From Gemmatimonadaceae bacterium (GTDB taxonomy: Bacteria > Gemmatimonadota > Gemmatimonadetes > Gemmatimonadales > Gemmatimonadaceae): a stretch of 51,586 nucleotides of DNA. The notes under the pieces were generated by a model, which saw only the letters and a program-made list of their open reading frames with translations, ran no database searches and was not told where the DNA came from. The position numbers were made by a program, and so were the translations under genes. Each line of letters opens with the position of its first letter. The stretch's first letter is position 1. The DNA lies in assembly GCA_025930755.1 (NCBI GenBank), contig JAICOJ010000014.1, positions 1-51,586 of the forward strand, read 5' to 3'. Shown in pieces: positions 19,435-22,162 of this stretch.

Positions 19435-20514
19435 TCAGGTTCTGCCCGCCGGCTGCTGCTGAGTCAAACAGTGGAGCGTGCCGAGCCCCCACACGAGATC
19501 GACCGAGTTGATGCCGATGACGTCGCGACCGGGGAAGCAGTCGGCGAGGATGTTGAGGGCAACGCGATCGTTGACGTCGTTGAACGTCGGGACGATCACG
19601 ACGCCGTTCGCGATGTAGAAGTTCGCGTAGCTCGCCGGCAGACGCTCGCCATCCATGATCACGGGCCGCGGGTACGGGAGATCGATGACTCGGAGGCCGC
19701 CCTCCAGCCGTCGACCGGCGTGCTCGAGTCGATGGCGGTTGTCGACGGATCGCTCGTGGTTCGCATCGGCCGGGTCGGGCTCGAACGCGAGAACGACCGT
19801 GTTCGGCGCAACGAAGCGCGCGATGTCGTCCACGTGCCCGTGCGTGTCGTCACCGACGCAGCCTTCGCCGAGCCAGATGGTGGTGTGGATGCCGAGGTAC
19901 TCGCGAAACGCACGCTCGTAGCCGGCGCGATCGAGGCCGGGATTCCGCTCCTGGATGGTCGACAGAAGACACTCCTCGGTCGTCAGCAGCACGCCGGCGC
20001 CGTTCGTGTCGATCGCCCCCCCTTCGAGGACGAGACGATTGCCATCGTCAGGCCGAACGGCCTCGACGCTGGGGATTCCCGCCAGCCGCGCCACCGCCGG
20101 CGCGATCAGCGCATCGGCGCGGTGGTTGTCGTACTTCGCCCAGGCATTGAAGCGCCAGCAGACGGCCTCGACGCTCCCATCCTCGCGCCAGACCATGGTC
20201 GGTCCCGAATCGCGCAGCCACACCCGATCGCTGGGGACGCGGTGCACGCGACAGCGATCGAGCCTAACGCCGTGCGAGTGGAGCGCCGCGACAGCCTGAT
20301 CCTGAATCTCCTCGGAGTGACAGAGGATCTGGACCGGCTCGTATCCGTGGAGGGCCCGCACGATCTCCGCGTAGACCCAGCGAATGGGCTCGAACTTCCC
20401 CGGCCAGTCGGGATCATGGTGGGGCCAGCCGATCCAGGTGGCAGAGTGGGTCTCCCACTCGGCGGGCCACAGTCTCGGAGTCCGGGCAGCCATCGCGCGT
20501 GGTCTCAGCGGCAA
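19435..20514 (-). CDS. aguA: Agmatine deiminase
   Basis: Agmatine deiminase converts agmatine to N-carbamoylputrescine and ammonia. The 359-residue protein has the family wording WPAEWETHSATWIGWPH, WLRDSGPTMV, LVLEGGAIDTNG, THGHVDDIARF and the catalytic Cys349 in GTLHCLTQQQP. A bacterial peptidyl-arginine-deiminase-like protein is the same family; the adjacent aguB supports the agmatine role. It follows aguB on the same strand with a hairpin in the 97-base gap, so the two may have separate 3' ends but share regulation. No arginine decarboxylase gene is in the window. Confidence 0.93.
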   Translation of the reverse strand: MPLRPRAMAARTPRLWPAEWETHSATWIGWPHHDPDWPGKFEPIRWVYAEIVRALHGYEPVQILCHSEEIQDQAVAALHSHGVRLDRCRVHRVPSDRVWLRDSGPTMVWREDGSVEAVCWRFNAWAKYDNHRADALIAPAVARLAGIPSVEAVRPDDGNRLVLEGGAIDTNGAGVLLTTEECLLSTIQERNPGLDRAGYERAFREYLGIHTTIWLGEGCVGDDTHGHVDDIARFVAPNTVVLAFEPDPADANHERSVDNRHRLEHAGRRLEGGLRVIDLPYPRPVIMDGERLPASYANFYIANGVVIVPTFNDVNDRVALNILADCFPGRDVIGINSVDLVWGLGTLHCLTQQQPAGRT

Positions 20515-20611: not shown

Positions 20612-21526
20612 TTACCCAATGTAGCGCTGAAGGATGGGGCCGTACGCATCTATCCGACGATCTCGCAGGAAAGGCCAGTTCCGCCTCGTGTACTCGATCA
20701 GCTTCGGGTCGCACTCGGCGATCAGAATCGTCGGCTCCGTACCCGCTTCGGCGATCAGGCGCCCGAAAGGGTCGGCCACGAAGGAATGCCCGAAGAAGTC
20801 GATGCCGTCGGTGCCCGGCTCGGGCTCGTGGCCCACCCGATTCGCTGCCGCGACGTAGATGCCGTTCGCGATCGCGTGCGCGCGCTGAATCGTGCGCCAC
20901 GCGTCGGCCTGGGATTTTCCCCACTCGTCCTTCTCTTTCGGATGCCAGCCGATTGCCGTCGGATAGAGCAGAATCTGCGCGCCCATGAGCGCCGTGATCC
21001 GCGCCGCCTCCGGATACCACTGATCCCAGCAGATCAGCACCCCCAGCGTCGCATATCGAGTGCGGAAGACGCGAAACCCCGTCTGGATGGTCGGCGTCTC
21101 ACCGTGCTGGTAGATCTCCCCCGGCGTGAAGTAGTACTTCTCGTGGTAGAGCGGGTCATCGGGGATGTGCATCTTGCGGTACACGCCCACGAGCGAGCCG
21201 TCGGCGTCGATGACGGCCGCGGAGTTGTGATAGACGCCCGCCGTGCGCTTCTCGAAGATCGGGACGACGATCACGAGCGCCAGCTCGCGCGCGAGCGCCT
21301 GCATCCGCTCGACGATCGGTCCGGGGATCGGCTCGGCGAGATCGAAGCGCTCCGCGTCCGTGACCTTGCAGAAGTACGGCGCGTTGAAGAGCTCCTGGAG
21401 CAAAATCACCTGCGCGCCGCGCCGAGCCGCCTCGCGGATGTCGTCCACGGCTTCGGCAACGGTGGCCTCGGCGTCGACTGCCACGCGTTGCTGAATGACG
21501 CCGAGGGTGAAGGGAGCCGTGCTCAC
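20612..21526 (-). CDS. aguB: N-carbamoylputrescine amidase
   Basis: This carbon-nitrogen hydrolase converts N-carbamoylputrescine to putrescine, the step after aguA. The 304-residue protein has the nitrilase triad: Glu45 (LLQELFNAPYF), Lys118 (YRKMHIPDD) and Cys166 (LICWDQWYPEAA). FFGHSFVADPFG and the C-terminal FLRDRRIDAYGPI are typical of AguB. The gene pair gives a complete agmatine-to-putrescine branch. It starts 33 bases after the stop of the peroxiredoxin gene, with a small hairpin between them. Confidence 0.94.
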   Translation of the reverse strand: MSTAPFTLGVIQQRVAVDAEATVAEAVDDIREAARRGAQVILLQELFNAPYFCKVTDAERFDLAEPIPGPIVERMQALARELALVIVVPIFEKRTAGVYHNSAAVIDADGSLVGVYRKMHIPDDPLYHEKYYFTPGEIYQHGETPTIQTGFRVFRTRYATLGVLICWDQWYPEAARITALMGAQILLYPTAIGWHPKEKDEWGKSQADAWRTIQRAHAIANGIYVAAANRVGHEPEPGTDGIDFFGHSFVADPFGRLIAEAGTEPTILIAECDPKLIEYTRRNWPFLRDRRIDAYGPILQRYIG

Positions 21527-21535
21527 CGGGATGGC

Positions 21536-21560
21536 GCGGGACGATGGCGTCCCGTCCCGC
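21536..21560 (-). terminator. Short hairpin after the peroxiredoxin gene
   Basis: GCGGGACG (21536-21543) and CGTCCCGC (21553-21560) form a perfect 8-bp stem with a 9-base loop. It touches the stop codon of the minus-strand peroxiredoxin gene and precedes aguB. No T-run follows, so it may be an attenuator or weak terminator. Confidence 0.5.
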
Positions 21561-22162
21561 TACTTGTGGGCCGAGTCGGCAACGGCAGCGCTCTTGTCAA
21601 CGGCAGCCGCGAGCTCGGTGTAGGCATCGGGTGACAACACCTTGAACGACAGCATGACGTGGGCGATGCGCCCGTCGGGCGATACCACGAAGAGGTTGCG
21701 CGTGTCGAGCTTGCGGACGGCGTCGAACGATCCATAGCGGCGTCCGGCCTCGTTGCCGACATCACTCGCGAACAACATGGGAAAGTCCGACTCCCGGGCC
21801 CATGCGGCGAGCGTGGTATCGGCATCGGCGCTGATCCCGATGACGACGACGTCGTTCCCGGCGTTGAAGAGCGTGGCGTACTGGTCACGGTACGCCTCCA
21901 TTTGCACCGTTCAGCCCTTGGTTCGCGCCTGGTAGAAGAACGCGATCACAACCGTCTTGCCGCGGAAGTCGCTCAGCCGAACGGGCTCGGCGAGCCGTCC
22001 GTAGCGGGTCGCGCCGGGGAGAGTGAAGTCGGGCGCCATCGAGCCCACGGTTGGAACCGTGGCGGCTGCGGGCGCGGCAGGCGTCTGCGCGGACATCACG
22101 GAAGCCGTGGCGGTCGAGAGAAGCGCGACGGCGAGCGCGCGCCGAAAGTTCTGTAAACTCAT
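21560..22162 (-). CDS. Exported peroxiredoxin with in-frame TGA at the catalytic position: candidate selenoprotein
   Basis: Read through one TGA (21911-21913), this is a 200-residue AhpC/TSA-type peroxiredoxin with a signal peptide (MSLQNFRRALAVALLSTATA, then A-Q). The N-terminal half has GSMAPDFTLPGA and LSDFRGKTVVIAFF; the TGA then falls at codon 84 in Y-Q-A-R-T-K-G-stop, exactly where P-x-x-x-T-x-x-C has its peroxidatic cysteine. The frame goes on with TVQMEAYRDQYATLF, VVVIGISADADTTLAAW and LFVVSPDGR. There is no other cysteine. A 7-bp hairpin follows at a SECIS-like distance. Selenocysteine insertion is my leading reading; nonsense mutation or base error are alternatives. The start is the ATG at 22162 with an AGGGGGG site. 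It precedes aguB. Confidence 0.75.
21875..21896 (-). promoter_or_regulatory. Candidate bacterial SECIS hairpin
   Basis: On the coding (minus) strand, GGCGTAC and GTACGCC form a perfect 7-bp stem around the 8-base loop CGTGACCA. The stem begins 14 bases, and the loop 21 bases, after the in-frame TGA; the loop has G at its second position. Known bacterial SECIS elements lie immediately after the UGA with a small apical loop carrying an early G, so this fits. Caution: the stem partly follows from coding A-Y-R-D-Q-Y-A, which may be conserved for protein reasons. Confidence 0.5.

Follow-up and report, generated by a model that had tools for sequence, protein, structure and literature searches.

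We analysed a window of 51,586 nucleotides, that is, the whole stretch taken from the forward strand of contig JAICOJ010000014.1 of a Gemmatimonadaceae bacterium (GCA_025930755.1), in which a peroxiredoxin gene on the minus strand (21560..22162) contains one in-frame TGA and ends in TAG. Translated with UGA as selenocysteine (Sec), it encodes a protein of 200 amino acids with a lone U84 and no Cys, and the Pfam domain AhpC-TSA (PF00578) matches residues 39-168 with 90 bits (cut-off 26). The TGA is codon 84 (21911..21913, minus strand) and occupies the peroxidatic position of a TxxU motif, in the context FFYQARTKG-U-TVQMEAYRDQYA. An earlier note on this DNA had described two halves in one frame, split by a single TGA at the place of the catalytic Cys, in a protein that lacks Cys elsewhere; it had coordinates, frame and codon right, U84 is the sole redox residue on translation, and the same column holds TGA or Cys in relatives. 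Of the motif P-x-x-x-T-x-x-C, which the note gave here as Y-Q-A-R-T-K-G-U, the Thr is present (T81, codon 21920..21922, minus strand), and Tyr77 (21932..21934, minus strand) stands where the canonical Pro belongs, giving Y77-Q-A-R-T81-K-G-U84. Across relatives, Thr81 is nearly invariant (invariant in comparison A1 and nearly so in A2) and Arg155 (21698..21700, minus strand), which from general peroxiredoxin knowledge we take to be the probable active-site Arg, is invariant in both.

The next gene downstream encodes a carbon–nitrogen hydrolase of the nitrilase family (20612..21526, minus strand; Pfam CN_hydrolase, 216 bits), followed by an agmatine deiminase-like protein of the PAD_porph family (19435..20514, minus strand; Pfam PAD_porph, 365 bits). 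Elsewhere in the window, the unit gcgaactgcgaactgcgaac recurs in the intergenic segment 22900-23000, where a strong inverted repeat of G+C bases, with T after it, also gives a terminator-like arrangement.

To place the codon in its family, one genome per species was scanned, and the best 80 of 142 matches, nearly all titled Gemmatimonadota, were taken as loci. Among the 89 gene copies in these 80 loci, the peroxidatic column is TGA in 78, TGC in 10, TGT in 1 and nothing else, so that close relatives share the TGA and none of these copies has a random nonsense codon there. Seven loci (L065, L066, L067, L069, L071, L072 and L082) hold two tandem copies, one with Cys and the other with TGA, roughly 550 bases apart. 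As the loci are the best 80 of 142 matches, the Sec form may be spread more widely among other phyla. This distribution bears directly on whether the TGA is a sequencing artefact or a true nonsense mutation in a decaying gene, an idea for which one could cite the source assembly with its 275 contigs. The same-column TGA recurs, however, in 78 genes from other species and independent assemblies, including single-contig genomes, Cys is the only alternative the column shows, and the protein is as conserved after the TGA as before it. Because independent assemblies agree, a codon other than TGA at 21911-21913 is unlikely, and we consider artefact or decay the least credible of the explanations weighed here.

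The source genome, a metagenome-type assembly (100% complete, 1.2% contaminated), encodes the complete machinery for Sec insertion, namely selA (553 bits), selB (325 bits, with the winged-helix domains SelB-wing_2 and SelB-wing_3), selD (383 bits) and a tRNA-Sec with anticodon TCA (UCA; 73 bits). These genes lie on contigs other than that of the peroxiredoxin, with the tRNA-Sec gene directly downstream of selD. The selD gene (L019:1410-2454, minus strand of genome contig C13) has an in-frame TGA of its own in the N-terminal motif CAGUAAK, making it a candidate selenoprotein.

Across 249 Gemmatimonadota genomes, each at least 90% complete, a relative of the peroxiredoxin was found in 209, tRNA-Sec in 182 and selA in 186. 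Each of the 166 genomes carrying the TGA form encodes tRNA-Sec, selA or both, with both present in 150; among the 31 genomes with only a close Cys copy, 29 have neither, so the Cys form occurs mostly in genomes that lack the machinery. The exceptions are G006 (L142) and G078 (L152), which encode tRNA-Sec and selA yet carry the Cys form only, and 12 further genomes have only remote relatives of the peroxiredoxin. The association of TGA form and machinery gives a Fisher p of 1e-32, a value that is descriptive only because the genomes share kinship. A tree of 113 copies needs seven Sec/Cys switches, at least four of which are forced by supported branches. Relics of a Sec insertion element (SECIS) were sought in the Cys genes of machinery-free genomes and appeared as one partial case (L139, TAC CGT GAT), not as a general pattern. 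A plasmid search turned up only distant Bcp proteins and, in Gemmatirosa, a relative of the Cys type.

The nucleotides past the TGA can fold into a putative SECIS hairpin (21875..21896, minus strand), GGCGUAC-CGUGACCA-GUACGCC, whose 7-bp stem (6 bp invariant in the family) closes an 8-nt loop, CGUGACCA, with G at its second position, and which starts at nucleotide +15 past the TGA. The perfect stem and early loop G match what the earlier note had pointed out; taken alone, however, the hairpin carries less weight than the note gave it and stays at the level of chance. Against dinucleotide shuffles, the hairpin in the window sequence shows no excess (z = -0.19), and 15% of synonymous recodings yield an equally long stem, because the peptide EAYRDQYA itself favours one. 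The hairpin as a single sequence is thus unremarkable, and we left it out as evidence.

Conservation is what raises the hairpin above chance, through the shared TGA column and through codons whose synonymous sites stay fixed in Sec copies and not in Cys copies. The 79 Sec copies show hardly any variation in codons +6 to +11 (GCG TAC CGT GAT CAG TAC), whereas the same amino acids elsewhere in the gene use mixed codons; over codons +4 to +12, synonymous entropy in Sec copies averages 0.26 bits, compared to 1.21 bits elsewhere (p = 4e-5). The six inner pairs are intact in every one of the 79 Sec copies, in L048 by a double change from G-C to A-U, and are not kept in 11 Cys copies. The loop codons of the window gene (21887-21889 to 21884-21886) have GAC for GAT, the sole such case among the 79.

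These patterns also speak to readthrough of the UGA without Sec, whether by general suppression or by reassignment to another amino acid, for which the tolerance of an in-frame UGA by a conserved gene could be taken as a sign. TGA is nonetheless the commonest stop, ending 20 of the 31 long, high-GC3 open reading frames of the window, and reassignment was rejected on this ground. The genome has the complete Sec machinery with its UCA tRNA-Sec, the column alternates with Cys codons only and tracks the machinery, and the hairpin codons are conserved. Readthrough by such routes is hence very improbable, if marginally less so than an artefact. The codon column, the machinery, the frozen hairpin codons and the co-occurrence can all be read from the genome sequences themselves, and on that footing the UGA is very probably read as selenocysteine. 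Of the conditions that the earlier note had named as refuting this reading, those open to a check on genome sequences, namely missing Sec machinery and random nonsense codons in close relatives, did not hold.

The predicted structure fits a peroxiredoxin. In an AlphaFold model (window protein and 55 relatives; pLDDT 89.5), the closest solved fold, at Z 23.6 and rmsd 1.5-1.6 Å, is that of the 1-Cys peroxiredoxin AhpE from Mycobacterium tuberculosis; Sulfolobus Bcp4 ties with it and other peroxiredoxins also fall within Z 1, so the resemblance is a likeness and not proof of subfamily. With AhpE the window protein shares, besides the fold, the single redox residue, but it has Sec for Cys, 28% identity and a probable export signal. 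The active site departs from the canon at the Pro of PxxxTxxC, which is kept in all 31 Cys copies and absent from 59 of 82 Sec copies, mostly in favour of Tyr or Phe, the other 23 keeping it. By raw count the association of Pro loss with Sec is striking, yet it comes down to roughly 2.5 contrasts that are independent and supported, each pointing the same way (p at least 0.25), and because independent switches are few we treat it as a lead and not as a result. The replaced Pro, in the window and in those 59 copies, and the want of a second redox residue could instead suit a selenoprotein that uses the peroxiredoxin fold mainly as a thiol-disulfide or reductase-type enzyme, or as a peroxide sensor. 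Such a role is unlikely, considering that Thr81 and Arg155 are retained, that the top structural match is a 1-Cys peroxiredoxin, that 23 Sec copies retain the Pro and that the window protein has no CxxC-like motif.

Residues 1-25 (22088..22162, minus strand) look like an export signal peptide, with RR, a hydrophobic core and the site MSA|Q, according to a rule-based test. By the same simple kind of test, the N-terminus resembles a signal peptide in 78 of 79 Sec copies, which suggests that the enzyme is probably located in the cell envelope. Predicted export, the absent active-site Pro and the phylum-wide occurrence are observations that go beyond the earlier note.

Lacking a resolving Cys, the enzyme would need a reductant from outside. 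In 31 of the 80 loci (best 80 of 142 matches), spread over distant branches, the neighbours of the Sec gene encode a thioredoxin of the TlpA kind (WCPNC) and a carrier of the CcdA/DsbD type (for example, L026:951-2217). They follow the Sec gene on the opposite strand, in a convergent arrangement and not as a single operon, and the membrane carrier is a DsbD_TM protein of CcdA size, CcdA-like rather than ScsB. The source genome has a TlpA and CcdA pair on another contig, away from the window peroxiredoxin. From gene proximity we conjecture that TlpA and CcdA supply the electrons, at odds a little short of even. Reduction by small thiols or by another protein comes close behind: the neighbour in the window is of the nitrilase family and not TlpA, as it is in 37 of the 80 loci (best 80 of 142), usually with an agmatine deiminase-like gene (PAD_porph, 34 of those 80), and AhpE-like enzymes can use other donors. 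Against such donors stand the 31 loci from distant branches with TlpA and CcdA beside the Sec gene (best 80 of 142), and the pair in the source genome.

A comparable chain has been described in Caulobacter, where ScsB, TlpA and PprX clear envelope peroxide (Cho et al. 2012, as described in PMC5403849). In so far as that account goes, the likeness would lie in a peroxiredoxin of the envelope, here a probable one, together with a TlpA-like thioredoxin and an electron carrier in the membrane, here with genes together in 31 of 80 loci (best 80 of 142). The differences are Sec for Cys, a CcdA-size DsbD_TM protein for ScsB, and a link that here is one of gene proximity.

Knowledge of Sec-peroxiredoxins as such goes back to 2001 (Sohling et al., as cited in PMC13188914), with 43 reported from the Sargasso Sea (PMC1088965) and 91 from 78 organisms in a 2016 survey (PMC5029168), in keeping with the earlier note's remark that they occur in a few other bacteria. 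Like PrxU of Eubacterium acidaminophilum and the TxxU proteins of marine and other surveys, the window protein combines an AhpC/TSA domain and Sec in TxxU with a bacterial SECIS-like hairpin just past the UGA; unlike them, it has a probable export signal, Tyr for Pro, a residue of PxxxTxxU that a 2026 review calls "highly conserved", and a Gemmatimonadota-wide distribution. Membership in PrxU (NCBIfam NF040737) was rejected at 60.9 bits against a cut-off of 270. A literature search, supplementary tables aside, found no report of a Sec-peroxiredoxin for Gemmatimonadota, nor of an exported form. Because it scores far below the PrxU cut-off and is missing the canonical Pro, we place the window protein, by its sequence, as a variant branch of the known Sec-peroxiredoxins that is apparently unreported.

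Our main reading, to which we give a probability of roughly 0.93, is that the window gene encodes an AhpC/TSA-family selenoprotein that is probably exported to the cell envelope; its Sec insertion, its export and its peroxidase activity are inferred. Under this reading, SelA, with selenophosphate from SelD, would produce Sec-tRNA(UCA), which SelB would carry to the UGA under the guidance of the hairpin that starts 15 nt downstream. Once the enzyme has folded, the U84 selenolate, with T81 and R155, would reduce peroxides, and the oxidised Sec would be recharged from outside, most likely by a TlpA-like thioredoxin in the periplasm that CcdA keeps in the reduced state. Points against this explanation are the machinery on other contigs, the exceptions G006 and G078, the insignificance of the window hairpin by itself, the missing canonical Pro and the placing of the TlpA and CcdA genes, which are convergent with the peroxiredoxin gene where they adjoin it and do not adjoin it in the window. 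More tentatively, and with odds somewhat against it as a whole, the envelope of Gemmatimonadota may be defended against peroxide by an exported single-Sec peroxiredoxin that is recharged by TlpA and CcdA, has its active-site Pro relaxed by selenium and alternates with a Pro-keeping Cys form where Sec machinery is absent.

If the selenoprotein reading is true, a largely uncultured phylum would join the known users of selenocysteine, with a Sec-peroxiredoxin that gene-calling programs truncate at the TGA. The repeated, machinery-tied switches between Sec and Cys in one gene would amount to a natural experiment on the benefit of selenium to an enzyme, and the same switches may show what in the active site, the Pro for instance, becomes dispensable with selenium. 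If true, a selenoenzyme that is exported and draws on a reductant fed through the membrane would also place selenium in a new context of peroxide defence.
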